The notes beneath the pieces are model-generated. The model made no database searches and was not told the origin of the DNA. It saw only the letters and a list, made by a program, of their open reading frames with translations. DNA of 64,000 bases from Aurantimonas coralicida DSM 14790 (lineage in GTDB: Bacteria; Pseudomonadota; Alphaproteobacteria; Rhizobiales; Rhizobiaceae), in contig NZ_ATXK01000002.1 in assembly GCF_000421645.1 (NCBI RefSeq), forward strand, positions 434,001-498,000, written 5' to 3'. Positions 34,141-62,601 of this stretch are shown in pieces; within the stretch, counting starts at the first letter, position 1; every line of letters starts with the position of its first letter. A program made the position numbers and the translations under genes.

Positions 34141-35012
34141 GCGTCGCGGCCGCCCTGCGCGCGGCGCTTGCCGCGGGTGATCCAGCCGTCCTCGTCACGG
34201 TGACGGAGGTTCGCGGCTCGACCCCGCGCGAAGCCGGCGCGGCGATGCTGGTCACGGCGGACGGCATGGCCGGCACGATCGGCGGCGGGCGGCTGGAATT
34301 CGAGGCCATCGAACGCGCCCGCATGATGCTGGAGGCCGGTGAGGACACGGCTCAGATGGACGTGCCCCTCGGCCCCGAGATCGGCCAGTGCTGCGGCGGC
34401 CGCGTCCGGCTCGACCTTGCCCCCGCCGACGATGCCGCGCTGCAGGCCTTGACGAGGGACGACGAAGTCCGGCGCGCAGCCCAGCCGACCGTGCTGATCT
34501 TCGGTGCGGGCCATACCGGGCGCGCGCTGGCGACGGCGCTGGCGCTGCTGCCCTTCTCGGTGCGGCTCGTCGACAGCCGGCCGGAGACGCTGCACGGCCT
34601 GCCCGACACCGTCACGACGGTCGCCGCCGCGCTGCCCGAGGCCGAAGTGGACGCCGCACCCCCGGGCGCCGCCTATGTGGTGATGACCCACGAGCACTCG
34701 CTTGACTTCCTCATCGCCGGCGCGGCGCTGGCGCGCGGCGATGCCGCCTATGTCGGTATGATCGGCTCGGCGACCAAGCGCGAGCGGCTGCGCCGCGATC
34801 TGGAAGCCGCCGGATGTGGCGGCGACATCGATCGGCTGACCTTGCCGATCGGCGGTGCTGCGGTGCGGGACAAGCGGCCCGAAGTGATCGCCGCGCTGAC
34901 GGCTGCCGAGCTGGCGACCTGCCTGCTTTCCAGTCAACAGGAAATAGTGATCGATCGCTTTGCAGCTGCGTCTGCGCGGTGCAATAGTGCGCCAGTCCGA
35001 TCAACGAGGTGA
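34137..35012 (+). CDS. xdhC: Xanthine dehydrogenase accessory protein XdhC
   Basis: The 291-residue protein is XdhC, which binds molybdenum cofactor, helps its sulfuration and inserts it into XdhB. It has the N-terminal region (VTVTEVRGSTPREAGAAMLV, TIGGGRLEFEAI, IGQCCGGRV) and a Rossmann-type C-terminal domain (VLIFGAGHTGRALATAL, AAYVVMTHEHSLD, YVGMIGSATKRERL). The last 25 residues appear nonconserved. The stop overlaps a possible GTG start of the transporter ATPase, linking the xdh operon to the BMP-type transporter. Confidence 0.95.
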   Translation: MSVAAALRAALAAGDPAVLVTVTEVRGSTPREAGAAMLVTADGMAGTIGGGRLEFEAIERARMMLEAGEDTAQMDVPLGPEIGQCCGGRVRLDLAPADDAALQALTRDDEVRRAAQPTVLIFGAGHTGRALATALALLPFSVRLVDSRPETLHGLPDTVTTVAAALPEAEVDAAPPGAAYVVMTHEHSLDFLIAGAALARGDAAYVGMIGSATKRERLRRDLEAAGCGGDIDRLTLPIGGAAVRDKRPEVIAALTAAELATCLLSSQQEIVIDRFAAASARCNSAPVRSTR

Positions 35013-35023
35013 CCCGCTCCGCC

Positions 35024-36565
35024 ATGGCGCCACGGCTGCAGCTTTCCGGTATCACGAAGCGCTTTCCGGGCGTCGTCGCCAACGAGGCGGTGTCGTTTTC
35101 CGTGGCGCCCGGAGAGATTCACGCCCTCCTGGGTGAGAACGGCGCCGGCAAGTCGACCCTCGTCAAGATCATCTACGGTGTCCAGAAGGCCGATGAGGGC
35201 GAGATCGCCTTCGACGGCCACGCGGTGTCCATCGACTCGCCGCGCGAGGCGCGGGCCCTCGGCATCGGCATGGTGTTCCAGCATTTCTCGCTGTTCGAGG
35301 CGATGACGGTGCTGGAGAACATCGCGCTGGGCATGGACAACCCCCCGCCGCGCCGCGAGCTGGAGGCCGCTGTCCGCGACGTCCTCGAGACCTACAAGCT
35401 CACCCTCGACCCGCACCGCTACGTCCACACCCTGTCGGTGGGCGAGCGCCAGCGCATCGAGATCGTGCGGGCTCTGTTGCAGCGCCCGAAGCTGCTGATC
35501 ATGGACGAGCCCACCTCGGTGCTCACGCCCCAGGAGGTGGAGCAGCTCTTCGACACGCTGCGGCGCCTCGCCTCCGAGGGCTGCTCGATCCTCTACATTT
35601 CCCACAAGCTGCACGAGATCAAGGAACTCTGCGGATCGGCGACCATCCTGCGCGGCGGCAAGGTGGTCGCCACCTGCGATCCGCGCGCCGAATCGGCGCG
35701 CTCCATGGCCGAGCTGATGATCGGCGGCAGCCTGAAGGATCTGGCGCCGCGCGAAGGCGAATGCTCCGGCGCCAACCGGCTGGTGGTCGAGGCGCTGTCG
35801 ATGGCCGGCGAGCCGCCCTTCGGCACCAGCCTCGCCGACGTCTCCTTCGCGGTGCGGGCCGGCGAGATCTTCGGCATTGCCGGCGTCGCGGGCAACGGCC
35901 AGAACGAGCTTCTCTCGGCACTGTCGGGCGAGCGCGCCGACTATGAGGGCGGGGCGATCACCCTCGACGATACGCCGATCACCCACCTCTCGGTGACCGG
36001 GCGCCGTGTCGCCGGCCTGGCGACCCTGCCGGAGGAACGCAACGGCCACGCCGCCGTGCCGGGGCTTTCGCTCGCCGAGAACGCCATCCTGTCGGCGCGC
36101 CGACGCAAGGGGCTGGTGTCGGGCGGCATCATCCGCGCCGGGGCCGCACGCCGCTTTGCCGCCGCGGTCATCGACGCCTTTTCGGTGAAGGCCACCGGTC
36201 CGGCGGCCTCGGCCGCCAGCCTGTCGGGTGGCAATCTGCAGAAATTCGTCATGGGCCGGGAGATCATGCAGGAGCCGGCGGTACTGGTCGTCTCGCAGCC
36301 GACCTGGGGTGTCGATGCCGGCGCGGCCTCCTTCATCCGCCAGGCGATGGTCGATCTGGCCGGCAAGGGCACGGCGATCGTCGTGGTCAGCCAGGACCTC
36401 GACGAGCTTCTGGAATTCTGCGACCGCATGGCGGTCATCAATGGGGGACATCTGTCGGATGCGATGGAGGTGAAGGGCATTTCGGTCGAACGGGTCGGGC
36501 TGCTGATGGGCGGTGTCCATGGCGAGGCCGATCAGCCGCCGGCCACCGCGGAGCGGGCCGCCTGA
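35024..36565 (+). CDS. BMP-family ABC transporter, duplicated ATP-binding protein
   Basis: A 513-residue protein with two ABC ATPase domains. The first is complete: GENGAGKST, LSVGERQRIEI, LLIMDEPTSVL. The second is degenerate: a Walker A-like GVAGNGQNEL, LSGGNLQKFVMGREI and a Walker B with Ser replacing Asp (VVSQPTWGVD), as usual in this subfamily. It energises purine nucleoside or base uptake in related BMP systems. The ATG at 35024 fits homologue starts; a GTG at 35009 overlapping the xdhC stop is the alternative. The stop shares one base with the next gene. Confidence 0.93.
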   Translation: MAPRLQLSGITKRFPGVVANEAVSFSVAPGEIHALLGENGAGKSTLVKIIYGVQKADEGEIAFDGHAVSIDSPREARALGIGMVFQHFSLFEAMTVLENIALGMDNPPPRRELEAAVRDVLETYKLTLDPHRYVHTLSVGERQRIEIVRALLQRPKLLIMDEPTSVLTPQEVEQLFDTLRRLASEGCSILYISHKLHEIKELCGSATILRGGKVVATCDPRAESARSMAELMIGGSLKDLAPREGECSGANRLVVEALSMAGEPPFGTSLADVSFAVRAGEIFGIAGVAGNGQNELLSALSGERADYEGGAITLDDTPITHLSVTGRRVAGLATLPEERNGHAAVPGLSLAENAILSARRRKGLVSGGIIRAGAARRFAAAVIDAFSVKATGPAASAASLSGGNLQKFVMGREIMQEPAVLVVSQPTWGVDAGAASFIRQAMVDLAGKGTAIVVVSQDLDELLEFCDRMAVINGGHLSDAMEVKGISVERVGLLMGGVHGEADQPPATAERAA

Positions 36566-37695
36566 TGGCCTTCGTTCTCGAACCGCGGCGTGAGCCGAGC
36601 CGGGCCATGATGCTGGCCGCCCCGGTGATCGCGGTCGCCCTTACCCTCGTCGTCGGTGCGCTGCTGTTCACGCTGCTCGGCCATAACGGCGCGCTGGCGG
36701 TCTACGAGATCTTCGTGCGGCCGCTGTTCAATCCCTATCGCTGGCAGGATCTGCTGGTGAAGGCCGCGCCGCTGGCGATCATCGCCACGGGCCTCGCCAT
36801 CGGCTTTCGCGCCAATGTCTGGAACATCGGCGCCGAGGGGCAGTACATTCTGGGCGGCCTCGCCGGCACCGGCATCGCGCTCGCCACGCTCGATCTCGAC
36901 GGCGGCTGGGTCCTGCCGCTGATGGTCGTCGCCGGCATCCTCGGCGGCATGGCCTGGGCGGCGGTGCCGGCCTTTCTCAAGACGCGGATGAACGTCAACG
37001 AGATCCTGTCGAGCCTGATGCTCAACTACGTGGCGATCCAGCTCCTGTATTATCTGATGCGCGGGCCGTGGAAGGACCCGATGGGCTTCAACTTCCCGCA
37101 GACGGCGATGTTCTCGGCGGCGCAGACGCTGCCCGTCGCCGTGCCGGGTACGCTGATCCATCTCGGCATCCCGATCGCCGCGGCGTTGGCGCTGACCGCC
37201 TGGTTCCTGATCGCCCGCTCGATAACCGGCTTCCAGATCCGCGTCGTCGGCCTTGCCCCGCGCGCGGCGCGCTATGGCGGCTTCCGGCAATCCTCCACCG
37301 TCTGGCTGGCGCTGATGGTCGGCGGCGGCATGGCCGGGCTTGCCGGCATCCTCGAGGCCAGCGGTCCCTTCGGGCAGATGGTCCCGCAATTTCCCACCGG
37401 CTACGGCTACACGGCGATCATCGTCGCCTTTCTCGGCCGGCTCAATCCGCTTGGCATCCTGCTCGCCGCACTCGTGCTGGCGCTGACCTATGTCGGCGGC
37501 GAAAGCGCCCAGACGGCGCTCGGCCTGCCATCGGCGGCCGCGGGCGTCTTCCAGGCAATGATGCTGTTCTTCCTGCTGGCGACGGACATTCTGGTGCGCT
37601 ACCGGCTGGCGTGGCGCCGGCCGGCCGCCGGCCATCCGCTGCCGGCGGCCGGCCAGGGCGCAACCAAGACCCGCGCGGAGGCCGCGACCGCATGA
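36565..37695 (+). CDS. BMP-family ABC transporter, permease 1
   Basis: This 376-residue inner-membrane permease of the nucleoside/branched-chain type has about nine helices. It carries GFRANVWNIGAEGQYILGG near residue 85 and the transporter loop TRMNVNEILSSLMLNYVA. The C-terminal 30 residues form a hydrophilic Ala/Gly-rich tail. It forms the channel with the next permease. It overlaps the ATPase gene by one base and the second permease by four. Confidence 0.92.
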   Translation: MAFVLEPRREPSRAMMLAAPVIAVALTLVVGALLFTLLGHNGALAVYEIFVRPLFNPYRWQDLLVKAAPLAIIATGLAIGFRANVWNIGAEGQYILGGLAGTGIALATLDLDGGWVLPLMVVAGILGGMAWAAVPAFLKTRMNVNEILSSLMLNYVAIQLLYYLMRGPWKDPMGFNFPQTAMFSAAQTLPVAVPGTLIHLGIPIAAALALTAWFLIARSITGFQIRVVGLAPRAARYGGFRQSSTVWLALMVGGGMAGLAGILEASGPFGQMVPQFPTGYGYTAIIVAFLGRLNPLGILLAALVLALTYVGGESAQTALGLPSAAAGVFQAMMLFFLLATDILVRYRLAWRRPAAGHPLPAAGQGATKTRAEAATA

Positions 37696-38618
37696 CCCTT
37701 GCGCTGTTCATCACCATCCTGATGACGGTCGCCGCCGCCGCGACCCCGCTGTTGATCGCGGCGCTCGGCGAACTCGTCGTCGAGAAGTCCGGCGTCCTCA
37801 ATCTCGGCGTCGAGGGCATGATGCTGATCGGCGCGGTCACCGGTTTTGCCGTGGCGTCGGTCACCGGCGTGCCGGCGGTCGGCGCAATCGCCGCCATGGG
37901 CGCAGGCGCGCTCGCGGCCCTGATCTTCGCCGTCCTGACCCTGAGCCTGATGGCCAACCAGGTCGCGACCGGACTGGCGCTGACGATCTTCGGCACCGGC
38001 GTCTCGGCGCTGCTCGGCGCACCCTATGTCGGCATCACCACGACGCCCCTCGGCCCGGTCTTTCCGGACGCGCTGGCGGCCGACCCGATCTGGCGGATAC
38101 TCTTCGGTCATTCGCCGCCGGTCTATGCGGGGCTTCTCCTGACGCTCGGCGTGTGGTGGTTCCTGAAACACAGCCGGCCGGGGCTGATCCTGCGCGCCGT
38201 CGGCGAGAGCGACAGCGCCGCCCATTCGATCGGCTATCCGGTGCTGAAGATCCGTTATCTGGCGGTGCTGTTCGGCGGCGCCATGGCCGGTCTCGGCGGC
38301 TGCTATTATTCGCTGGTGCTGACGCCGATGTGGGCCGAGCGACTGACCGCCGGGCGCGGCTGGATCGCCATCGCGCTGGTGGTCTTCGCCTCCTGGCGAC
38401 CGGGCCGGGTGCTCGCCGGGGCGTATCTCTTCGGCGCGGTGATCACGCTGGAGCTGCAGGCCAAGGCGGCCGGGCTCAATTTCTTCGCGCCCGAGCTTCT
38501 GGCGAGCCTTCCCTATCTGGCGACGGTGCTCGTCCTGGCAATCATTTCCGCCGGCCGGCGCGGGGCCGGTACGGCGGCGCCGGCCTGTCTCGGCCAACCC
38601 TTCAGGGCCAGTGCCTGA
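37692..38618 (+). CDS. BMP-family ABC transporter, permease 2
   Basis: The 308-residue permease shows the family signature GELVVEKSGVLNLGVEGMMLIGA near the N-terminus and SLMANQVATGLALTIFGTG further on, with about eight to nine membrane helices. It pairs with permease 1. The short C-terminal tail (ACLGQPFRASA) is nonconserved. It is separated from the binding-protein gene by 31 bases. Confidence 0.92.
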   Translation: MTLALFITILMTVAAAATPLLIAALGELVVEKSGVLNLGVEGMMLIGAVTGFAVASVTGVPAVGAIAAMGAGALAALIFAVLTLSLMANQVATGLALTIFGTGVSALLGAPYVGITTTPLGPVFPDALAADPIWRILFGHSPPVYAGLLLTLGVWWFLKHSRPGLILRAVGESDSAAHSIGYPVLKIRYLAVLFGGAMAGLGGCYYSLVLTPMWAERLTAGRGWIAIALVVFASWRPGRVLAGAYLFGAVITLELQAKAAGLNFFAPELLASLPYLATVLVLAIISAGRRGAGTAAPACLGQPFRASA

Positions 38619-38649
38619 ACCCGTTCACGAACACGAAAAGGAGTCCCAG

Positions 38650-39738
38650 ATGTTCGACACCACCAGACGCCGACTGATGGCCGGAGCCGTCGGGCTCGCC
38701 GCCACCGCAACCTTCGCCCTGCCGGCCTTCGCGCAGGACGGCAAGGACACCGTCAAGGCCGCCTTCGTCTATGTCGGTCCGATCGGCGATTTCGGCTGGA
38801 CCTACGCCCACGACCAGGGCCGCAAATATCTCGAGGAGAAGCTCGGCGACAAGGTCGAGACCTCCTATGTCGAGAACGTCGCAGAAGGCCCGGACGCCGA
38901 GCGCGTCATCCGCCAGCTCGCCCAGGAAGGCAACGACATCATCTTCACGACGTCGTTCGGCTTCATGAACCCGACCATCAAGGTGGCCAAGCAGTTCCCG
39001 GACGTGAAGTTCGAGCACGCGACCGGCTACCAGACCGGCTCGGACAACATGGGCCTGTACAATTCGCGCTTCTATCAGGGCCGCGCCGTGCTCGGCACGA
39101 TCGCCGGCATGATGTCGGAGACGGGCAAGGCCGGCTACATCGCCTCCTTCCCGATCCCCGAGGTGGTGATGGGCATCAACGCCTTCACCCTGGCGGCCCG
39201 CAAGGTCAATCCGGAGTTCACCACCCAGGTCGTCTGGGTCTCGTCCTGGTACGACCCGGCCAAGGAAGCCGACGCCGCCAAGGCGCTGCTGAGCCAGGGT
39301 GCCGACGTCATCACCCAGCACACCGACTCGCCGGCTCCGCTGCAGGCCGCCGAAGAGGCCGGCGCCATCGCCTTCGGCCAGGCCTGGGACATGACCAGCT
39401 TCGCGCCGAACGCCCACATGACCGCGATCGTCGACCAGTGGGGTCCCTATTACGTCAAGCGGGTCGAGGCGCTGCTGGACGGCACCTGGGAAGCCGACAA
39501 TGTCTGGCTCGGCATGGCCGAGGGCGAGGTCGAGATGGGCCCGTTCAACGACAAGATGCCCGATGATGTGAAGGCCGCCGCCCAGAAGATCGTCGACGAG
39601 ACCAAGGCCGGCAATTACGAGATCTTCACCGGACCGATCAAGGATCAGGCCGGCGAGGAGCGCGCTGCCGAGGGTGAGGTCATCCCCGACGGCGACCTCC
39701 TCAAGATGGATTGGTATGTCGAGGGCGTGCAGAACTGA
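38650..39738 (+). CDS. BMP-family ABC transporter, substrate-binding protein
   Basis: A 362-residue periplasmic binding protein of the basic-membrane-protein (PnrA-like) family. A Tat/Sec-like signal (TTRRRLMAGAVGLAA, ending ALPAFAQ) is followed by AAFVYVGPIGDFGWTYAHDQGR, AQEGNDIIFTTSFGFMNP and GADVITQHTDSPAPLQAAEEAG. The family binds purine nucleosides or related compounds. AAGGAG precedes the ATG. Its position after xdhABC and before puuD and guanine deaminase points to a purine base, urate or nucleoside as ligand, which is inference. Confidence 0.92.
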   Translation: MFDTTRRRLMAGAVGLAATATFALPAFAQDGKDTVKAAFVYVGPIGDFGWTYAHDQGRKYLEEKLGDKVETSYVENVAEGPDAERVIRQLAQEGNDIIFTTSFGFMNPTIKVAKQFPDVKFEHATGYQTGSDNMGLYNSRFYQGRAVLGTIAGMMSETGKAGYIASFPIPEVVMGINAFTLAARKVNPEFTTQVVWVSSWYDPAKEADAAKALLSQGADVITQHTDSPAPLQAAEEAGAIAFGQAWDMTSFAPNAHMTAIVDQWGPYYVKRVEALLDGTWEADNVWLGMAEGEVEMGPFNDKMPDDVKAAAQKIVDETKAGNYEIFTGPIKDQAGEERAAEGEVIPDGDLLKMDWYVEGVQN

Positions 39739-51551: not shown

Positions 51552-52364
51552 ATGCCAAGCCAGTCCACCATCCGCAATGTTCTCTCGATCGCCGGCTCGG
51601 ACCCCTCCGGCGGGGCCGGCATCCAGGCCGATCTGAAGACCTTCGCGGCGAACGGCGTCTACGGCATGGCCGTGATCACCGCGCTGACCGCCCAGAACAC
51701 GCGGGGCGTCAGCGGCGTCGAACTGGTCTCGCCCGACTTCGTCACCCGCCAGATCGATGCGGTCTTCGCCGATATCCGCGTCGATGCGGTGAAGATCGGC
51801 ATGATCGCCACGGCCGAAATCGCCCATGCTGTCGCCGATGCGCTGAAGCGGCACCAGGCGCGGAACGTCGTTCTCGACCCGGTCATGGTCGCGAAGGGCG
51901 GCGATCGCCTGCTGGCCGAGGAGGCCGTGGCGGCATTACGCAGCGAACTCGTACCCCTTGCCGACATGATCACGCCGAACCTGCCGGAAGCCGCCGTGCT
52001 GCTCGATGTTGCGGAAGCCACCGACCGGGACGAAATGGAGGCGACCGCGACCCGCCTGCAGGCGCTGGGCTGCGGCTCGGCGCTGTTGAAGGGCGGCCAT
52101 CTGAGCGGCGACGACAGCCCGGATCTGCTGGTGACGGCAACGCAGCGCGAATGGTTCGAGGGCGTGCGCCTCCAAACCCGCAACACCCATGGCACCGGCT
52201 GCACCCTGTCCTCGGCGCTGGCGGCGCAGCTCGCGCTGACCGGCGACGCGTTCGCGGCGGTGAGGGTCGCCAAGGCCTATGTCGCGGGCGCCATCGGCGC
52301 GGCGGACCGGCTGGGCGTCGGATCGGGGCACGGTCCGACGCACCATTTCCACCGTCACTGGTAG
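51552..52364 (+). CDS. thiD: Hydroxymethylpyrimidine/phosphomethylpyrimidine kinase
   Basis: This 270-residue ribokinase-fold enzyme phosphorylates HMP and HMP-P in thiamine synthesis. Motifs are [60 protein letters not shown] and the anion-hole/catalytic [20 protein letters not shown] lies before the ATG. It follows a TPP riboswitch and stands alone rather than in a thi operon; a GGDEF gene converges 13 bases after its stop. Confidence 0.95.
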
Positions 52365-52377
52365 CCGGGCGCTTGGC

Positions 52378-53565
52378 TCAGGTGGCCTGCAGCAGGGCGT
52401 CGTCCGCGGGCGGTCCATCCACCGGGGCGTCTACCACGACGGCCTCGACGCGGTCGCGGCCCATGGATTTCGCCCGGTAGAGCGCCTGGTCGGCGGCAGT
52501 GAGCAGGCCGTTCAGGTCGCGGTTCGCCTCGTTGGTGGCCACGCCGGCACTGACGGTGGCCGCGATCGACCGGCCGCCGACCGTGCGGGCCTGGTTGGCA
52601 AATCCGCGCACGATCGCCCTTGCGATGACCGCCGGCTCGTGCTTGTCGCGTCGCCGGACGAGGGCGGCGAACTCCTCGCCCCCGAGACGGGCGAAGACGT
52701 CGGTCGGACGCAGATGGTCGGCGGTGCTGTCGACGAACAGCTTGATGACCTCGTCGCCGCAGCCGTGCCCGTGATCGTCGTTGATCTTCTTGAAGCGGTC
52801 GAGATCGAACAGCAGCAGGGCGACGTCGCCGGCATCGGCGTCGTTGAGAAGCGCGGTCGCCTTGGTCGTGAAGGCCCGGCGGTTGTCGATGCCGGTCAGG
52901 AAGTCGGTTTCCGACAGGCGGCGAAGAGACTGCTCATGCCGCCCGCGCACCATGGCAATGACGAGATAGGTGCTCACGCCGATCATCAGGATGGCCTGGG
53001 TCATCACCAGCGTGAACAGGAAGCCGGTCATCAATTGCTGGTCAGCTATGGCGGCTGGCAGGCCAACCAGCACCACGCGCAGGGCGCAGAACAGACCATG
53101 GGCACCGAAGGCCGCGCTGAGGATCAGCGCCGGCCCGCTGCGGGCCGTCGGGTTGAGCAGGGTCAGCGCGATGGCCAGCGAATAGAAGGCGGCGATGGTC
53201 GAGATCACGGCGACCCGGGCCTCGATGCTCTCTGCCGCCGGGGACAGCCCGTAGAACAGCAGCCAGACGACCGGCCCGGCATACCACCAGAGGCTGGTTT
53301 TCACATCGCAGAACCGGGCGAAGCCGACATAGAGCAGCGCATAGCCTGCGAGCAGCAGCGCATTGGCCCCGCCGATGGCCACCGCATAGAATTCGAACAC
53401 CCGCAGCGGCGCCGTGGCCGCAGCCAGCGCGATCAGGCCCATGCCGGCGCTCCAGTACAGCAGCGCCGTCTCGCGCAGATTCCGCCACTCGACCAGATGG
53501 CAGAGGCTGGCGCTGAGACAGAGCGCGCTCAGGACAAGGAGCATCGTGGGGGTATGGATCTGCAT
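52378..53565 (-). CDS. Membrane-bound GGDEF diguanylate cyclase
   Basis: The 395-residue protein has six to seven membrane helices in residues 1-205, then a GGDEF domain. The active-site motif is GGEEF (295-299), and an inhibitory I-site R286-P-T-D289 lies exactly five residues upstream, so it should make c-di-GMP with product inhibition. LSETDFLTGIDNRRAF and LFDLDRFKKINDDHGH are typical. It lies on the minus strand downstream of the transglutaminase gene and convergent with thiD. The start is preceded only by a weak ribosome site. Confidence 0.9.
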   Translation of the reverse strand: MQIHTPTMLLVLSALCLSASLCHLVEWRNLRETALLYWSAGMGLIALAAATAPLRVFEFYAVAIGGANALLLAGYALLYVGFARFCDVKTSLWWYAGPVVWLLFYGLSPAAESIEARVAVISTIAAFYSLAIALTLLNPTARSGPALILSAAFGAHGLFCALRVVLVGLPAAIADQQLMTGFLFTLVMTQAILMIGVSTYLVIAMVRGRHEQSLRRLSETDFLTGIDNRRAFTTKATALLNDADAGDVALLLFDLDRFKKINDDHGHGCGDEVIKLFVDSTADHLRPTDVFARLGGEEFAALVRRRDKHEPAVIARAIVRGFANQARTVGGRSIAATVSAGVATNEANRDLNGLLTAADQALYRAKSMGRDRVEAVVVDAPVDGPPADDALLQAT

Positions 53566-53657
53566 GTGCCCGCGAAAAACGAAGATGACGTAGGGATACT
53601 AGCGCGAAAGATGTCGACGCTTCGTTACGACTTGCAACGATGAGTCCGCAATAAGTC

Positions 53658-54554
53658 TCAGTCGCTCGCGGCGGTGGCGCCTTCCAGCGGGACCACGTCG
53701 ACGGCATGCGAGGTCTGCTGGTGGCCCGCGGTCACAACGACACCCGCGACCGGGGCGACATCGTCATAGTCACGGCCCATGGCCACGATGATGTGGCCCC
53801 GTTCCACCGCGACGCCGTTGGTCGGGTCGAACCCGACCCAGCCGGCATCCGGGCCGAGCCACGCGGCGGCCCAGGCATGCATGGAATCGGCGCCTTCGAG
53901 GCGCGGCTGCCCCGGCGGCGGCTCGGTGCGCAGGAAGCCGCTGACATAGGCCGCGGGAATGCCGGCGCCGCGCAGGCCCGCCACCATCACATGAGCAAAG
54001 TCCTGGCAGACGCCGCGGCGGCGCGCAAAGGCTTCGGCGATGCCGGTGCGCACGTCCGTCGCGCCGGGCTCGTAGGCGAAGTCGTCCTGGATGCGCCGCG
54101 CCAGCGCGAGGACGCCGGGTCCCGCCTGCGGCGACTCGTCGAGGCTCGAAGCGGCATAGGCGGTGATGTCGCCGGCCGGCACGATGCGGCGACTGCGGCC
54201 GAGAAAATGGATCGGCGACAGCGCGTCGCTGCCGCGCCAGGTGATCGCGGCGTCGGCGATGGCATCGGCCGTCGGCGTTGCCGCTAGGTCCACCGGTGCG
54301 CGGTCGACCCGCACGCGGGCGCGCATATCGACCGCCAGTTCGCCATGCGGTCGGCGGAACGCCACGTCCTCGACCGGATTGCCGAAGAAATCATGCTCGT
54401 GATGATGCTCGTCGGGATCGGGCGAGACGGCGACCGTCGAGGTGAGGACGCGCTGGCCGCTGTCGTCGCGGGGCCGCACATAGAGGAGATGGCGGGCATC
54501 GGCGACGGCGGAGGGATAGGCGCAGCCGATCTGCAGGCGGATGTCGTAGATCAT
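53658..54554 (-). CDS. Transglutaminase-like cysteine peptidase
   Basis: A 298-residue protein with an N-terminal bacterial transglutaminase-like beta domain (IRLQIGCAYPSAVADARHLLYVRP) and a transglutaminase-like core. The catalytic triad is C183 (GVCQDFAHVMVAGLR), H226 (SMHAWAAAWL) and D243 (GFDPTNG). In this family the activity is predicted to be peptidase or amide-bond exchange. No signal peptide, so cytoplasmic. Its start overlaps the stop of the ATP-grasp/alpha-E gene, as expected for a functional pair. Confidence 0.9.
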   Translation of the reverse strand: MIYDIRLQIGCAYPSAVADARHLLYVRPRDDSGQRVLTSTVAVSPDPDEHHHEHDFFGNPVEDVAFRRPHGELAVDMRARVRVDRAPVDLAATPTADAIADAAITWRGSDALSPIHFLGRSRRIVPAGDITAYAASSLDESPQAGPGVLALARRIQDDFAYEPGATDVRTGIAEAFARRRGVCQDFAHVMVAGLRGAGIPAAYVSGFLRTEPPPGQPRLEGADSMHAWAAAWLGPDAGWVGFDPTNGVAVERGHIIVAMGRDYDDVAPVAGVVVTAGHQQTSHAVDVVPLEGATAASD

Positions 54555-56944
54555 TCCGGGCCGCCCCCGTCGGTCGGGGTGGCCGGGCCGGCCATCAGAT
54601 AGCGGCGTCCGATCAGGTCCGACAAAAGGCCGAGATCGCCGGCGACACGTTCGAGGAAGGCGGTGTCCACTTCCGCCGCCTCGGCGGTTTCCAGCCGGAC
54701 CTTGAGGCGCGCCACACGGCGAAACAGCATGTCCGGCGTCTCGCCGGACTTCACGCCCGGCAGTTCCACCAGCCGCGCCTCCAGATCGTTCACCTGGAAG
54801 GCGAGCGAACGCGGATTGAGCGGATCGAGAAGCGTGAGGTCGACCACCGTCTCCTGCGACAGATCCACCGAATAGCGGCGGCGATAGGTGACGCGGCTGT
54901 CGGTGAATTCGAGGAGGGCTTCCAGTGCGCCCTCGGGCGGCGCGTCCCGCATCAGTGTCGCCGCGATCAGCGCCGACATCTGGCCGCGCTCGATCCGCCG
55001 GCCGCATTGCATGAAGCGCCAACCGGTGAACTGGTACATGTTCTCGCGCACGAGGCCCGTGAAGCCCGACAGCCGCGTCAGGATCTGGCTGGTCAGCGCC
55101 ACGATGTCCCCGTCATCGTCGGCGATGGCCTGTTCGATCAGCTCGACGATCTCGTTCAGGCTGCGCCAGCCATCGGGCGAAAACCGGTCGCGGATGCGCG
55201 AGGCGGTGCTGGCGGCCTGGCGGGCCAGCATCAGGAGGCCCGTTGCCGGGTCTGCCGGCGGGATCGAGACGCCGAGCCCTGACAGAAGCGTTGCGACACT
55301 GGCCTCCACCTCGGCCAGCCGCTGGCCTTCACCGGCCCGCGCCGCGTAGAGCCGCAGAAGCCGGGTGGCAACCTCGCAGCGTTCGGCATAGCGGCCGAGC
55401 CAGTAGAGATTGTCGGCGGCCCTTGCCGGCAGAGCCCCCGGCAGCCGCCGCAGGAAACGATCGCCCGAGCCGAGCAGCGTGACCGGGCTCGCCGGCGTTT
55501 CGGAAGGGATCCAGACGTCGGTGGAACGGCCACCCTTCTGCATGGAGACGACGCGGGCGTCGCGGGAATCGGCGATGCGGGCAAAGCCGCCCGGCATGAC
55601 GTGCCAGCCATCCTCGTCGCGGGCGAGAAAGACCCGCAGGGTCACCGGTCGTGGTTCCAGCACACCATCGACGAAGGCGGGCGCGGTGGACAGGCGGGCG
55701 ATCTCCTGGCCGACCAGCCGGAACCCCTCCGCAACGAGGCGCGATCCGCTGTCGCCGGTGTCGAAGGCCGGTCCGGCATCGCCGGTCGCAGCCGATGGCG
55801 GGAACGCGTCGGCCAGTTGCAGCCGGTCGCGATGCGCCGCGACATGGGCCCGCTCCGCCTCCTGGCCGCACCACCATGTCGCAACCGTCGGCAGCGCCAG
55901 CCGGTGGCCGATCAGCGCCTCGGCCAGCGGTTCCTGGAACGCCATCAAGGCGCGGCTCTCCAGAATGCCCGAGCCCGGCGCGTTGACCATCGCCAGCGTC
56001 CCGGCACGGACCGCGCGCAGCAGGCCGGGCGTGCCGATCCGCGAGCCGGCGAACAGCTCCAGCGGGTCGCAGAAATCGGCGTCGAGCCGGCGCCACAGGA
56101 CGCGGATGGCGCGGGTGCCGTCGACGGTCCGCACGTCGACGCGGTCGCCATGCACGACGAGGTCGCCGCCTTCCAGCAACAGGAGACCAAGATAGCGGGC
56201 GAGATAGGCCTGTTCGTAATAGGTGTCGTTGTGGGGCCCGGGGGTCAGGAGACCGATGCGCGAGGCGTCGGGACCGGCCAGCCTGTAGAGGCTGTCGCGG
56301 AAACGCTGGAAGAAGCCGGCCAGCCGCTCGACATTCATGTCGCGGGTGAGTTCGGGGAAGGCCTTGGCCGTGGCGACGCGGTTTTCCAGCGCGAAGCCGG
56401 CGCCGGACGGCGCCTGGGTGCGGTCGCCCAACACCCACCAGCGCCCGTCGGGGCCGCGGCCGAGATCCATGGCGATGAAGCGGATCAGCGGTTCGCCGGA
56501 CAGTCCCTGGTCGGCGACGGGCCGCAGGAATTCCGGGTTCTGGCCGAGGATCGGGCCGGGCAGGGTGCCCTCGGTGATCAGCCGGCGCTCCCCGTAGAGG
56601 TCGGCCAGCAGCCGTTCCAGGAAGTCGGCACGCTCGACCAGACCGTCCGACAGGCTCTGCCACTCCGCCGGATCGAGCACCAGCGGCGGCTGCGACAGCG
56701 GCCAGTCGCGCTCCACCTCGCTGGCGTCGCCATAGACCCGGTGGAAGACGCCGGCTTCGCTGAGATATTGCCGGGCGCTGCGGAATCGCGCGTCGCGCTC
56801 GCCATCCGCCATGCTCCCCAGGGCATCGATCAGCGGCCGGTAATGCGGGCGCACCGAGCCGTCCCGCGCCAGCATCTCGTCATGGCCGGTGCCGACAAGG
56901 GCGGCGTAGCGGGCGAGAACGGACGCGGGATCACGGAACTGCAT
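54551..56944 (-). CDS. Circularly permuted ATP-grasp fused to alpha-E domain
   Basis: The 797-residue protein joins two units that are usually separate genes. Residues 1 to about 480 are a circularly permuted ATP-grasp (type 2), with DFLERLLADLYGERRL, GDRTQAPSGAGFALENR, LTPGPHNDTYYEQAYLARYLG and NAPGSGILESRALMAF. Residues about 485-797 are an alpha-E helical domain (AADNLYWLGRYAERCE, MYQFTGWRFMQCGRRIERG, DSRVTYRRRYSVDL). ATP-grasp enzymes of this class are predicted to form amide bonds, perhaps on a peptide. AGGAG lies rather far (14 bases) from the ATG. It is coupled to the transglutaminase gene and divergent from the sodium channel. Confidence 0.9.
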   Translation of the reverse strand: MQFRDPASVLARYAALVGTGHDEMLARDGSVRPHYRPLIDALGSMADGERDARFRSARQYLSEAGVFHRVYGDASEVERDWPLSQPPLVLDPAEWQSLSDGLVERADFLERLLADLYGERRLITEGTLPGPILGQNPEFLRPVADQGLSGEPLIRFIAMDLGRGPDGRWWVLGDRTQAPSGAGFALENRVATAKAFPELTRDMNVERLAGFFQRFRDSLYRLAGPDASRIGLLTPGPHNDTYYEQAYLARYLGLLLLEGGDLVVHGDRVDVRTVDGTRAIRVLWRRLDADFCDPLELFAGSRIGTPGLLRAVRAGTLAMVNAPGSGILESRALMAFQEPLAEALIGHRLALPTVATWWCGQEAERAHVAAHRDRLQLADAFPPSAATGDAGPAFDTGDSGSRLVAEGFRLVGQEIARLSTAPAFVDGVLEPRPVTLRVFLARDEDGWHVMPGGFARIADSRDARVVSMQKGGRSTDVWIPSETPASPVTLLGSGDRFLRRLPGALPARAADNLYWLGRYAERCEVATRLLRLYAARAGEGQRLAEVEASVATLLSGLGVSIPPADPATGLLMLARQAASTASRIRDRFSPDGWRSLNEIVELIEQAIADDDGDIVALTSQILTRLSGFTGLVRENMYQFTGWRFMQCGRRIERGQMSALIAATLMRDAPPEGALEALLEFTDSRVTYRRRYSVDLSQETVVDLTLLDPLNPRSLAFQVNDLEARLVELPGVKSGETPDMLFRRVARLKVRLETAEAAEVDTAFLERVAGDLGLLSDLIGRRYLMAGPATPTDGGGPE

Positions 56945-57019
56945 GCTTTTTCGTAAAACTCCTGACCAGATGGGCTATAGCCGCATTCGCTCTCTGGACC
57001 TAGCAAGAGATTGGACACC
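56945..57019. promoter_or_regulatory. 75-base divergent region between ATP-grasp/alpha-E and channel genes
   Basis: This short gap must carry both divergent promoters and is richer in A and T than its surroundings (TTTTTCGTAAAACTCC). No clear -35/-10 pair or operator was recognised. The compactness suggests shared regulation of the two genes. Confidence 0.4.
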
Positions 57020-57808
57020 ATGCGCGCACACCTCGCCAGCCTGCTGCGCTCGCGCCGCTGGGAATACTTCATCATCACCGTCATCGTGATCAACGCGATC
57101 ACGCTCGGCCTCGAGACCGATCCCTGGATGATGGCGACCTTCGGCTCGCTCCTGGTGGCGCTCGACCAGACGATCGTCGTCGTCTTCGTGATCGAGATCT
57201 GCCTGCGCATCTACGCCTTCGGGTGGCGGTTCTTCCGCGATCCCTGGAGCCTGTTCGACTTCGCCATCGTCGCGATCGCGCTGATGCCGGCGACCGGACC
57301 GCTGACGGTGCTGCGTGCCCTGCGCATCCTGCGGGTGATGCGGCTGATCTCGGTGGTGCCGTCGCTGCGCCGGGTCATCGGCGGGCTGATCGCTGCGCTG
57401 CCCGGCATGGGCTCGATCGTCGTCCTCCTGCTTCTGGTCTTCTACGTCTTCTCGGTGATGGCGACCAAGCTCTACGGCGCGACCTTCCCCGAATGGTTCG
57501 GCAGCATCGGCGCGTCGATCTACACGCTGTTCCAGGTGATGACGCTGGAGAGCTGGTCGATGGGCATCGTGCGGCCGGTGATGGAAGCGCACCCCCATGC
57601 CTGGCTGTTCTTCGTGCCGTTCATCCTGTCGACGACCTATGCCGTCCTGAACCTGTTCATCGGTGTCATCGTCTCGGCCATGCAGGAGGAGCATCAGGCC
57701 GTCGTCGAGGCCGAACAGGAGCAGGTGCACGACGAGAACATGCAGGTGCTTGCCGAGTTGCGAGCCCTGCGCAGCGAGCTTGCGGAGATCAAGACGCGGC
57801 TCACCTGA
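57020..57808 (+). CDS. Voltage-gated sodium channel (BacNaV, NavAb-like)
   Basis: A 262-residue single-repeat channel with six membrane helices. S4 carries four gating arginines at three-residue spacing (R99, R102, R105, R108). The selectivity filter TLESWSM (175-181) and the following GIVRPVM resemble the sodium-selective NavAb of Arcobacter as I recall it. The C-terminal 40 residues (EEHQAVVEAEQEQVHDENMQ) should form the four-helix coiled coil that holds the tetramer. The ATG at 57020 is preferred to the TTG three codons earlier. Confidence 0.93.
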   Translation: MRAHLASLLRSRRWEYFIITVIVINAITLGLETDPWMMATFGSLLVALDQTIVVVFVIEICLRIYAFGWRFFRDPWSLFDFAIVAIALMPATGPLTVLRALRILRVMRLISVVPSLRRVIGGLIAALPGMGSIVVLLLLVFYVFSVMATKLYGATFPEWFGSIGASIYTLFQVMTLESWSMGIVRPVMEAHPHAWLFFVPFILSTTYAVLNLFIGVIVSAMQEEHQAVVEAEQEQVHDENMQVLAELRALRSELAEIKTRLT

Positions 57809-57822
57809 AACGGCGGGCCGAT

Positions 57823-57860
57823 CCGGCAGGCCCGCCCGTGGTGTGCGGTAGGCCTGCCGG
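57823..57860. terminator. Convergent terminator-like hairpin
   Basis: CCGGCAGGCC and GGCCTGCCGG form a perfect 10-base stem with an 18-base loop between the convergent channel gene and the DUF2126 gene. An overlapping GCGGGCC/GGCCCGC pairing is also possible. It probably ends both transcripts. Confidence 0.55.
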
Positions 57861-57878
57861 TATCAGGGTGATCGCGAC

Positions 57879-60800
57879 CTAGGCAAGGCCGGCGGGACGC
57901 CGCAGGTCCAGCGTCGTTGGGAAGGTCGCGTTGGGCCGCTCGCCGATCGGCTCGTAGGTGCCGGGCGTGTGGCCGATTTCCTCGAAGCGGGCGAGACGCC
58001 GGGCCTCGGCCTCGTAGGAATTGACCGGAAACGTATCGTAGTTGCGACCGCCCGGATGGGCGACGTGATAGACGCAGCCGCCCAGCGAGCGCTTCGACCA
58101 TCGATCGTAGATGTCGAAGGTCAGCGGCGCGTCGACGGGCAGGGTCGGATGCAGCCCCGAGGCCGGCTGCCACGCCTTGAAGCGCACGCCCGCTACCGCA
58201 TCCTTGCCGCTGCCGGTCGGCGTCATCGGTACTTCGCGGCCGTTGCAGGTGAGCATGTGGCGCGCCGGGTCGAAGCCGCTCATCTTCGCCTGCAGCCGCT
58301 CGACCGAGGAATCGACGAAGCGCACCGTGCCGCCGATGGCGCCCGTCTCGCCCATCACATGCCAGGGCTCCAGCGCCTGGCGCAGTTCCAGCGTGACACC
58401 GCTGCGCTCGATCCGGCCGCAGAAGGGGAAGCGGAACTCGGCCTGCGCCTCGAACCACTCGGCCCGCATCGGATAGCCGGCCGCGCCGAGATCGGCGAGG
58501 ACGTCGGTAAAGTCCTGCCAGACGAATTCCGGCAGCATGAAGCGGTCGTGCAGGGTGGTGCCCCAGCGCACGAAGCGGCCGGTCTCCGGCGTCTTCCAGA
58601 ACTTGGCGATCAGCGCCCGGATGAGGAGCTGCTGGGCCAAGCTCATCCGCGCGTCCGGCGGCATCTCGAAGCCGCGGAATTCGACGAGGCCGAGGCGGCC
58701 CGTCGGACCGTCGGGGGAGAACAGTTTGTCGATGCAGATCTCGGCTCGGTGGGTGTTGCCGGTCACGTCGATCAGGAGGTTGCGGAACAGCCGGTCGGTC
58801 ATCCATGGCGCCACGGAGGTGGAATCCTCCGGGATCTGCGCCATGGCGATCTCGAGCTCGTAAAGCTGGTCGTGGCGCGCCTCGTCGATGCGGGGCGCCT
58901 GGCTCGTCGGTCCGATGAACAGGCCGGAGAACAGATAGGACAGCGACGGATGGCGCTGCCAGTAGAGGACCAGCGACTTCAGGAGGTCCGGCCGCCGCAG
59001 GAAGGGCGAATCCAGCGGCGTGGCGCCGCCGACGACCACATGGTTGCCGCCGCCGGTGCCGGCATGCTTGCCGTCGATCATGAACTTGTCGGTGCCCAGC
59101 CGCGACTGCCGCGCCTCCTCGTAGACGGCCGTGGTGATGTCGACGCTCTCGCGCCATGACGCGGCGGGATGGACATTGACCTCGATGACGCCCGGGTCGG
59201 GTGCGACGCGGATGACGTTGAGCCGCGGATCGGCCGGCGGGGCATAGCCCTCGATCTGGATCGGCAGGTTTTCCGCTTCCGCCACCTCCTCGACTGCGCC
59301 GAGAAGGTCGAGATAGGCCTCGGCGGTCTCCAGCGGCGGCATGAACACGCATAATTTGCCGTCGCGCGGCTCGATGGCGATGGCGGTACGCACCGCGCCC
59401 AGAATGGCATTGGGGCTCGGCTCGGCCGGGGCCGCCGGCGCTGCGGTGCCAGAAGTCGACGTCATGCCGGCGCTGCCCGCCGACTGGCGCATCGTGCCGG
59501 CAGGGCCGTCCATTGCCTGCTCGGCCGTGTCGTCCCGCTGGCTCTGCATCTCGACGCGGCCGTACTGGGTGCGGTTTTGCGGCGGCAGCGGCGGGAAGGG
59601 CTGCATCGGGTCGGCCGGGTGGATGTAGGGATAGTCCTTCGGCTCCAGATGCGGGATCGCGCCGAGCGGCAGGCGATAGCCCAGCGCACTGTCGCCGGGG
59701 GCGAGGAACAGATGCCCGCGCCGGGTCGTCCAGCGCTCCGACTGCCAGCGCAGGGCGCGCTCGCCGCGTCCCTGCCACGCCTGCACCGGCAGGACATAGC
59801 CGGTCGGCTTGGACAGGCCGCGCGAGAACACCGTCGCCAGACGGGCGCGCTCCTCCGGGTCCTCGAGCTTGGAATCGGTCGGCTCGACATTTTCGGGAAG
59901 CTGCGCCTCGCGGGCGAGCCAGTAGGCGGAGTCCTCATAGGCCGGCGCGGCGTAGTCGGGCGACACGCCGATCGCCTCGGCGACCTTGCGCGACAGGCGC
60001 TCGGCCTCTTCGGGCCCGACCGGGCGCGCCTCGGTCTCACGCGCCACCAGTTCGGCGTTCTTCCAGACCGGCACGCCGTCCTTGCGCCAGTAGAGCGAGA
60101 AGGTCCAGCGCGGAAGGGTCTCGCCTGGATACCACTTGCCCTGGCCGTAATGCAGGAAGCCGCCGGGCGCGAACCGGTCGCGCAGGCGCCGGATCAGGTC
60201 GTCAGCGAGGCCCCGCTTCATCGGGCCGGTCGCGTCGGCGTTCCATTCCGGCGACTCGAACTCGTCGATCGAGACGAAGGTCGGCTCGCCGCCCATGGTC
60301 AGGCGGACGTCGTTCTCCACCAGTTCGCGGTCCACCTTTTCGCCGAGCGCGTCCAGCGCCTGCCAGCTCTCCTCGGAGAAGGGGTAGGACACGCGCGGCC
60401 GCTCGGAGATGCGGTCGACGGTCATTTCGAAGTCGAATTCGACCTCGGCGAAGCTGACGACGCCCGAGATCGGCGCGGCCGAGCGGTAATGCGGCGTCGC
60501 GGCCAAAGGCACATGGCTCTCGCCGGTCATCAGGCCGGAGGTTGGGTCGAGGCCGATCCAGCCGGCTCCGGGCAGATAGACCTCGGCCCAGGCGTGCAGG
60601 TCGGTGAAATCGACATCGGTGCCCGTGGGACCGTCGAGGGCGACCTGGTCGGGCTTCAACTGGATCAGATAGCCGGAGACGAAGCGGGCGGCGAAGCCGA
60701 GATGACGCAGGACCTGGACCAGCAGCCAAGACGTGTCGCGGCACGAGCCCGAGCGGTTCTGCAGCGTTTCGTCCGGCGTCTGAACGCCCGGCTCCATGCG

Positions 60801-61280
60801 CACCAGATAGGTGATCTCCTGCTGCAGCGTCCGGTTGAGGCCGACGAGGAAATCCACCGTATGGGTTTCGCTGCGGTCGAGCTCTTCCAGATAGCGGGTC
60901 AGCAGCGGACCGGCCGGCTCGGCGCCGAGATAGGCGGAGAGGTCGGTCTTCAGCGGCTCCTCGTACTGGAACGGCCAGGCCTCGGCCGCTTCCTCGACGA
61001 AGAAGTCGAACGGATTATAGACCGTCATGTCGGCCAGGAGATCGACCTCGATGCGGAATTCCGTGGCTTCTTCCGGGAACACCAGACGCGCGAGGTAGTT
61101 GCCGAATGGATCCTGTTGCCAGTTGATGAAGTGGTTTTCGGGCAGGATCTTCAGCGCGTAGGACGGCACCCTGGTGCGCGAATGCGGTGCCGGCCGCAGC
61201 CGGATGACCTGCGGGCCGAGCCTGACGGGGCGGTCGTAGCGGTAATGGGTGACATGGTGCAGGGCTGCTAGGATCGACAT
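57879..61280 (-). CDS. Transglutaminase-like/DUF2126 protein
   Basis: This 1133-residue protein starts with a transglutaminase-like region (1 to about 290): the beta domain ([23 protein letters not shown]) and a triad C180 ([14 protein letters not shown]), H229 ([10 protein letters not shown]) and D245 (GLDPTSG). Residues about 310-1133 are DUF2126, with [49 protein letters not shown] and a late [14 protein letters not shown]. The last two resemble an amidoligase active region of the glutamine-synthetase fold, which is inference. It is predicted to work with the ATP-grasp/alpha-E pair, and probably in the cytoplasm. The start at 61280 fits homologues; the ribosome site is weak. Confidence 0.9.
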
Positions 61281-61374
61281 CGGAACTTTCGTGCAGGTCA
61301 CTCGGAACGCGGCGGGGCGGATGCTGCAGACGTTCCTTGACCATAAGGCCGGGACGGTTCCCGGCAAGCTCTCC

Positions 61375-61393
61375 CATCCCCCTGCAGGGGATG
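61375..61393. promoter_or_regulatory. Inverted repeat CATCCCC-N5-GGGGATG in a divergent promoter region
   Basis: Perfect 7-base arms with a 5-base CTGCA centre lie in the 223-base gap between the DUF2126 gene (minus) and the metallopeptidase gene (plus), followed by an AT-rich ATTTATTT patch. It could be an operator controlling both genes. No protein-like frame occupies the rest of the gap. Confidence 0.4.
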
Positions 61394-61503
61394 CGGACCG
61401 ATTTATTTGCCTCCGGCGCCACAAAGCCGGAACCTGCCGCCCATCGGCGCATTGATGCGCGCTGGCTGCTAACGCCACGTCAGGCGCCGCAAAGGTATTG
61501 AAG

Positions 61504-62601
61504 ATGAAGCTGTTTTCCTGTCCGTCCTGCTCGCACACCGTGTTCTTCGAAAACACCGTCTGCGAGCGCTGCAATCACGCGCTCGGCTACGAGCCGCAGG
61601 CCAACCATATCCTGGCGCTGGAGGCCGACGACGGGATCTGGAAGTCGGTCGGCGCCTACAGTGATGCCGGCCGCTGGAAATACTGCCAGAACAGCGAATA
61701 CGGCGTCTGCAACTGGCTGATCCCCGGCGACAGCGCCGACAGCCTGTGCGCCGCCTGCCGGCACAATGTCACGGTGCCCGACCTCGGCGATACCGAGAAG
61801 GTCGATCTGTGGCGCAGCATGGAGATCGCCAAGCACCGGATGATCTACACGGCGATGCGGCTCGGCCTGCCGCTGGTGACCCGCGACGAGGACGATGAGG
61901 GCCTGGGCTTCGACTTCCTGTCGAACGATCCCGGCACCAACGAATCGGTGATGACCGGCCACGACGACGGGCTGATCACCATCGCGCTGGTCGAGGCGAA
62001 CGATGCCGAGCGCGAGAAGCGCCGGACATCGATGGGCGAGCCCTACCGCACGCTGCTAGGTCATTTCCGCCACGAGGTCGGCCACTGGTACTGGGACCGG
62101 CTGGTCCGCGACGGCGGTGCGCTGGACGCCTGCCGGGCGATCTTCGGCGACGACACGGTGGATTACGGCGACGCGCTGCAGACCCACTACGCCAACGGCC
62201 CGAAGCCGAACTGGCAGGACGAATATGTCTCGTCCTATGCCGGTGCCCATGCCTGGGAAGATTTCGCCGAGACCTGGGCGCATTACTTCCACATTGTCGA
62301 TACGCTGGAGACCGGCCGCAGCTGGGGCGTCATCGTCAATCCGCGGGTCGACGAGGCCGGGCTCCTCAGCACCCGGATCGATTTCGACGTCTTCGCGGAA
62401 GGTGTCACGACGCAGGAAATCGCCGGGGCGTGGCTGCCGCTGTCGGCGGCACTGAACTCGTTCAACCGCTCGATGGGGCATCAGGATCTCTATCCCTTCG
62501 TGCTCTCCGAAACGGTGATCGGCAAGCTCGGCTTCATCCACGATCTGGTCCATGGCCGGATCGGCAACGCGACGGGCAAGGCCGGCGCGCACCGCGGCTG
62601 A
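61504..62601 (+). CDS. Zinc-ribbon metallopeptidase
   Basis: The 365-residue cytoplasmic protein has an N-terminal zinc ribbon (CPSC at 6-9, CERC at 20-23), a second Cys group (C61, C69, CAAC at 82-85), and a zincin-like domain with H190-E-V-G-H194-WYW. The further acid-rich [13 protein letters not shown] probably supplies the third ligand. It fits the putative zinc-binding metallopeptidase family of unknown substrate. AAAGG precedes the ATG; a TTG two codons earlier is possible. It is divergent from DUF2126 and may be part of the same peptide-processing set. Confidence 0.88.

Follow-up and report, generated by a model that had tools for sequence, protein, structure and literature searches.

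A circularly permuted (CP) ATP-grasp protein fused to an alpha-E domain in Aurantimonas coralicida DSM 14790 has, by alignment, lost the magnesium- and ATP-binding residues of its intact relatives. The fusion gene lies in a 64,000-nt stretch of contig NZ_ATXK01000002.1 (GCF_000421645.1, positions 434,001-498,000, forward strand), here called the window, together with genes for a DUF2126 protein, a transglutaminase-like protein, a metallopeptidase and an ion channel (Table 1). We consider it probable, if well short of certain, that this block represents a branch, marked by DUF2126, of the predicted ATP-grasp/alpha-E/transglutaminase system and that its fused ATP-grasp serves as a partner and not as the maker of acyl-phosphates.

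Table 1. Genes of the block and its surroundings in the window
Feature	Position	Strand	Basis
Membrane-anchored GGDEF protein, between GlgB and transglutaminase genes	52378-53565	-	
Transglutaminase-like protein	53658-54560	-	Pfam
CP_ATPgrasp_2 (residues 87-458, 3.6e-119) + Alpha-E (505-783, 8.1e-55), 797 aa	54551-56944	-	Pfam
Ion_trans channel, antisense between DUF2126 gene and fusion gene	57011-57808	+	Pfam
Bact_transglu_N + Transglut_core + DUF2126, one chain, 1133 aa	57879-61280	-	Pfam; DUF2126 1332 bits
Zn_ribbon_DZR_6 + Peptidase_Mx metallopeptidase, divergent from DUF2126 gene	61498-62601	+	Pfam
Flanking genes: to one side TreS/maltokinase and GlgB; to the other TreZ, truncated where the window ends			

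All five block genes (53658-62601) match their Pfam families well above cut-off. This agrees with a sequence-only reading of the same DNA, which had named the five within 9 kb and had taken ATP-grasp and alpha-E to be one polypeptide; both domains do lie in a single 797-aa chain. The open reading frame listed for the transglutaminase-like gene spans 53658-55022, and its homologous part starts at the ATG at 54560, giving a 10-base overlap with the end of the fusion gene. Homologues of the DUF2126 protein begin at the same Met, and the metallopeptidase gene has a further in-frame ATG at 61504. A plus-strand reading frame at 52279-53643 was rejected as a gene, the true gene there being the minus-strand GGDEF gene. 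No NCBIfam model matches the four system proteins. An anti-phage or phage origin was also rejected, as PADLOC gave 0 matches for five proteins and PHROGs one weak match for four. Upstream in the window (31714-39738) are genes for a xanthine-dehydrogenase-type subunit, XdhC and Bmp/ABC transporter components, which suggests that purines are used as a nitrogen source.

ATP-site residues of the fused ATP-grasp

CP ATP-grasp proteins were divided into type A, the standalone intact form, and type B, the fused form. Residues were compared in an alignment of 44 intact type A rows (43 of them different) and 103 fused type B rows, from which matches shorter than 1000 bases had been dropped. Labels came from the best-matching query or from identity to the window protein and were set before the scripted residue counts; the motif difference between the types was first noticed in a smaller set and then counted in the full alignment. 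Glu158, Asn160, Lys319 and Lys366 are each kept in 44/44 type A rows. Among the 103 type B rows, Glu occurs at the first of these sites in 3, Asn at the second in 0 (Arg in 97), Lys at the third in 3 (Arg in 71) and Lys at the fourth in 7. Any of the four is retained in just 12 of the 103, and never more than two of the four together. A fifth site, Lys465, is Lys in 43/44 type A rows versus 16/103 type B rows. In the window fusion, Gly173, Arg175, Arg331 and Ala378 replace Glu, Asn, Lys and Lys. A tree of 99 rows built by a quick method splits the two types at a branch with support 100, with three long type B branches flagged.

The predicted structure places these differences in a known fold. 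The model of the fused protein (pLDDT 85.5, pTM 0.84) has as its best solved match 3n6x (E 7e-28), a putative glutathionylspermidine synthase from Methylobacillus flagellatus, and its ATP-grasp part matches the glutathione/glutathionylspermidine synthetase-type ATP-grasp fold. This nearest solved structure is of the intact type and carries LEDN and ADDK, where the window protein has GDR and ESR. The circularly permuted fold is shared with glutathione, glutathionylspermidine and trypanothione synthetases. For the last of these, a modelling study of the Leishmania major enzyme assigns two Mg ions to Asp330, Glu344 and Asn346, and the ATP phosphates to Lys513 and Lys548 (PMC3581523). Mapped onto the alignment columns by motif order and spacing, as distinct from a residue-level structural alignment, the Mg and ATP sites described in that study are gone in nearly all fused rows. 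The sequence-only reading had treated the fused ATP-grasp as an amide-forming enzyme, a role against which this loss of ATP-binding residues on alignment argues; that reading had itself listed such a loss as refuting its proposal. No description of ATP-site loss in the fused ATP-grasp was found in a literature search that covered sources other than Iyer et al. (2009).

Gene order, co-occurrence and neighbours

A scan of relatives confirmed at least 588 loci, and the best 80 named ones were compared; all are at least 63% identical, so distant members are under-represented. The closest named relatives, among the matches listed, are Aurantimonas species, the DUF2126 protein being 87% identical to that of A. 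marianensis. Gene order could be followed in the 72 of the best 80 loci whose sequence runs on for 3.6 kb or more beyond DUF2126, and in 68 of these 72 the DUF2126 gene, the fusion gene and the transglutaminase-like gene follow one another on the same strand. The three genes, in that order, form the conserved core. The four exceptions (L047, L058, L095 and L104) have DUF2126 without the fusion and the transglutaminase. Two loci with a window-like neighbourhood (L133, which appears to be the genome of L047, and L134) have lost the fusion and transglutaminase genes and keep the GGDEF neighbour beside DUF2126. Beyond the core trio, no gene family is present in more than 22 of the best 80 loci (genes shorter than 60 aa were not called).

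Co-occurrence was counted in 101 genomes of the family and 299 genomes of the phylum. In the family sample DUF2126 is found in 51 genomes, the fusion in 50 and both in 49. The fusion is missing from two of the 51 DUF2126 genomes, and one genome (G069) keeps the fusion without DUF2126, which we count against the main reading. Every DUF2126 genome has a CP ATP-grasp match (51/51 in the family, 84/84 in the phylum), and such matches extend overall to 84 of the 101 family genomes, one of them (G089) with a fragment alone, and to 161 of the 299 phylum genomes at E 0.001 (157 above cut-off). DUF2126 is thus nested inside the genomes that hold a circularly permuted ATP-grasp. Genomes with Peptidase_Mx also have the CP ATP-grasp, in 47/47 cases in the family and 45/46 in the phylum, and 40 of the 47 in the family have DUF2126 as well. 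By Fisher's test the co-occurrence of core genes and metallopeptidase in relatives is far above chance, in values that ignore shared descent and are not to be read as probabilities. Families, core order and co-occurrence agree in placing the block in the predicted amide-bond system, as first proposed.

A gene cluster in mycobacteria may be similar to this one. The control genome of Synechococcus elongatus has matches to DUF2126, CP ATP-grasp and alpha-E. Separately, Mycobacterium leprae ML2678 combines a transglutaminase with PF09899 (DUF2126) and is described as having no known function (PMC11597610), so DUF2126 is not confined to Proteobacteria.

The metallopeptidase, which the sequence-only reading had included in the set, proves to be a recurrent partner by both adjacency and co-occurrence. 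It lies beside the core in 10 of the best 80 loci (from at least 588 relatives). Its gene is within about 6 kb of a DUF2126 or CP ATP-grasp gene in 14 of the 47 family genomes that have it and, in the phylum, in at least 14 of 46 genomes from nine families, beside both A and B; in the remaining genomes it sits elsewhere. The HExxH...E motif is well kept: the Glu of HExxH is present in 26/27 rows, and the two His residues and the Glu that is the third ligand are present in 27/27. The standalone transglutaminase-like protein likewise has an intact triad (Cys185, His228, Asp245), found in 100/100 standalone rows. In a Boseongicola locus (L095, 13331-14365) a metallopeptidase gene lies on the opposite strand directly after DUF2126, where the fusion would be expected. 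Of the phylum genomes with Amidoligase_2, 8/11 also have Peptidase_Mx; in the three whose positions were compared (G116, G149 and G168) it is far from Amidoligase_2 or on another contig.

The ion channel, named by the same reading as part of the set, was rejected as a system member: an Ion_trans gene occurs in two of the best 80 named loci (L044 and L045), and in L142 besides, and the L043 contig ends before that place. The channel and the glucan genes are lineage-specific neighbours.

The intact second locus and the DUF2126 protein

A second locus, outside the window and missed by the sequence-only reading, was identified on contig C7 of the same genome. It encodes a standalone, intact CP ATP-grasp, then a second alpha-E protein, then a proteasome-family match of the Anbu type, and it has no transglutaminase. 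Our survey of this type A locus took in 81 genomes, our own included, out of the 84 in the family that have a CP ATP-grasp match (all but G043, G077 and the fragmentary G089). Alpha-E lies beside it in 81/81. A transglutaminase does so in 30/30 genomes without DUF2126 versus 40/51 with DUF2126. The other 11, which include our genome and its genus mate, look like one clade, and the transglutaminase was therefore probably lost in one event. Anbu is at the A locus in 58/81 genomes, and 21 of the 23 that lack it (one of which, G084, had just 1.9 kb searchable) carry DUF2126. These counts fit, without proving it, the idea that the DUF2126 locus can take over some of what the A locus provides.

Types A and B also occur together in one fetched region, some with Anbu, in 15 of 27 DUF2126 regions from other families (L128, L130, L139, L146-L149, L152, L153, L156-L160 and L162); the 27 are not a random sample, having been selected to span diversity or because a metallopeptidase or ATP-grasp gene lay close by. 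Two regions, L150 and L151, contain no B but unite DUF2126 with an A-type ATP-grasp, alpha-E, transglutaminase and Anbu; the L151 genome has one CP ATP-grasp match and the L150 genome has two.

The DUF2126 domain of the window protein is full length, covering profile positions 3-826 of 826 (score in Table 1). The transglutaminase-like domain of the same chain has the triad Cys180, His229 and Asp245, present in 110/110 rows. The structural model has a mean pLDDT of 69.6; in Foldseek its N-terminal part matches transglutaminase folds, and the next group, in a ranking that leaves out very-low-probability hits, comprises GmaS, 4hpp and GlnA, all weak (E 0.1-0.7, probability up to 0.66). This structural likeness to glutamine synthetase/GmaS fold enzymes had no counterpart in sequence profiles: comparison of the DUF2126 profile with GS, GCS2 and Amidoligase_2 gave no support, and since the positive control, GCS2 against GS, failed too, that comparison is void. 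Residues E700, N702, N746, H747, R797, E847, E867 and R869 are invariant in 41 DUF2126 sequences, in an order that we take to be typical of the glutamine-synthetase fold, and the Pfam description of DUF2126 likewise is amidoligase. The model gives weak support to a glutamine-synthetase fold for DUF2126, and its predicted activity as a glutamine-synthetase-like amidoligase is plausible.

Nitrogen regulation and possible function

Published physiology of related clusters points to nitrogen. In Burkholderia cenocepacia, cluster I35_5080-83 is reported to encode DUF404/407, DUF403 and two transglutaminase-like proteins and to depend on NtrC and sigma-54, with log2 changes of -6.0 to -9.4 in an ntrC mutant under nitrogen limitation (PMC5491218). 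We infer that I35_5083, described as a large transglutaminase-like protein, is the DUF2126 protein. Pseudomonas putida transcripts on nitrate versus ammonium rise about 16- to 22-fold for PP_2688 (CP ATP-grasp; log2 3.99) and PP_2685 (proteasome-like; log2 4.44), and in reporter strains under nitrogen depletion the PP_2688 promoter was up 3.7-fold and the PP_2685 promoter was unresponsive (PMC8050072). In Bradyrhizobium, a sigma-54 site is given for a CP_ATPgrasp gene (PMC13207237). These published nitrogen-responsive clusters are compared here without A/B typing of their ATP-grasp. A search for sigma-54-like sites upstream of the genes in the window and of our genome's A locus returned none. 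Elsewhere, near-matches to such sites appear modestly enriched: sites with at most one mismatch precede 4 of 36 A-type genes versus about 0.2 expected (control rate 0.5%), and sites with at most two mismatches precede 14 of 107 DUF2126 genes versus about 5 expected.

The closest known system is the Anbu operon, or ATP-grasp/alpha-E/transglutaminase system, as described in PMC6376114 and PMC5666114, which has the same families and a proteasome-like peptidase. In the window, however, ATP-grasp and alpha-E form one chain without ATP-site residues, DUF2126 and Peptidase_Mx are added, and Anbu and the intact ATP-grasp are on another contig. Pfam found no Anbu among the block's genes, and the block is therefore classed as a branch of the system and not as an Anbu operon. 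For Yersinia it is reported that the ATP-grasp released phosphate from ATP, that Anbu showed no peptidase activity and that no complex of the operon proteins was detected (PMC6376114). No substrate of Anbu, alpha-E or these ATP-grasp proteins is reported in the literature found. RloABC of Pseudomonas aeruginosa (PMC12239564) is similar in combining an ATP-grasp with a transglutaminase-fold protein and a peptidase, and in having one enzyme-like member that is inactive. As described in that source, its transglutaminase is the inactive, membrane-bound part and its peptidase is a retropepsin, whereas in the window both transglutaminase triads are intact and it is the ATP-grasp that has degenerated.

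Without its ATP-using residues, the fused ATP-grasp probably leaves the joining chemistry to its partners, and catalysis likely shifts to the intact A copy and DUF2126. In the proposed mechanism the fusion would no longer make acyl-phosphates and would instead bind substrate, or play a structural/regulatory part, for the intact ATP-grasp/alpha-E pair on contig C7, for DUF2126, or for both. Additional amide bonds would be formed, with use of ATP, by the glutamine-synthetase-like domain of DUF2126. The two Cys-His-Asp (transglutaminase-like) domains would move amide bonds or cut them, and hydrolysis or trimming of the product would fall to Peptidase_Mx and Anbu. By analogy with the published clusters, the product is most likely a conjugate of peptide or isopeptide type that cells make or recycle under nitrogen shortage. 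A more specific picture is offered tentatively and may well be wrong: a widespread two-locus ligase in which the dead ATP-grasp, joined to alpha-E, is a regulatory or substrate-holding subunit for the intact copy, DUF2126 is a second amidoligase and the product is a nitrogen-storage isopeptide dismantled by Anbu and Peptidase_Mx when nitrogen is scarce.

It is possible, though we doubt it, that the system modifies proteins, tagging them with peptides or amino acids that Anbu and Peptidase_Mx would take off again, and does not make a free small peptide. Tagging and untagging are among the roles proposed in print for the Anbu operon (PMC6376114), and the lack of any further gene family above 22 of the best 80 loci beside the core trio (within the 60-aa calling limit) is consistent with this. 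However, NtrC control and the correlation of these domains with urea domains and amino-acid metabolism in marine metagenomes (PMC3597751) suit the handling of metabolites equally well.

Less probable still is that the fused ATP-grasp remains an enzyme with changed chemistry, using Arg in place of the metal-binding Asn, or another nucleotide or donor. Some pseudo-kinases have proved to have other activities. On either reading the fused protein is under purifying selection and has not decayed: compared with Aurantimonas endophytica, dN is about 0.18 and dS about 0.68 for its ATP-grasp part, with much the same for alpha-E and Peptidase_Mx, and between 100 and 102 of 102 rows retain the Arg and the Glu-Arg motif of alpha-E. 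In the ATP-grasp domain, the first acidic metal ligand, at the Asp145 site, is retained as Asp or Glu in 103/103 type B rows (51 Asp, 52 Glu), Arg148 is retained in 100/103, and many further columns do not vary across 41 fused sequences. The predominance of Arg at the Asn160 and Lys319 sites would also suit altered catalysis. On the other side, most rows have lost the E-x-N pair along with the two lysines that bind phosphate, and genomes can drop the fusion and keep DUF2126, whereas no sampled DUF2126 genome is without a CP ATP-grasp match. We therefore continue to prefer a partner role for the fused protein.

A role in alpha-glucan or trehalose metabolism, with the block inserted in that cluster, is very improbable as a general function: TreS/GlgB and TreZ flank the block in the window's clade, the downstream genes of Rhizobium-like loci include GlgB (preceded in 16 loci by a conserved 820-aa gene, which is of phosphorylase type in the one of the 16 checked by Pfam), and P. 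putida treY rises on nitrate (log2 2.19) along with the ATP-grasp and proteasome-like genes (PMC8050072), but the window's GlgB, TreS and TreZ have no match in the Mesorhizobium, Bosea, Bradyrhizobium, Methylobacterium, Devosia or Rhodobacteraceae-type named loci. In a Henriciella locus (L100) there is a single TreS-like hit, at 33%. The glucan/trehalose setting noted in the first reading stands for the window itself; a general link does not, the cases among fetched loci being only Rhizobium-like or Aurantimonas-like.

The system is of a known predicted kind, and what appears to be new here is the ATP-site loss in its fused ATP-grasp, which makes the idea of a pseudo-ligase partner clearly testable. 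The A/B distinction shows which proteins to assay, namely the intact copy and DUF2126. The nesting of DUF2126, the recurrent metallopeptidase and the published nitrogen control narrow the condition under which a product should be sought, for a system whose CP ATP-grasp match is widespread in the sampled genomes of both family (84/101) and phylum (161/299).
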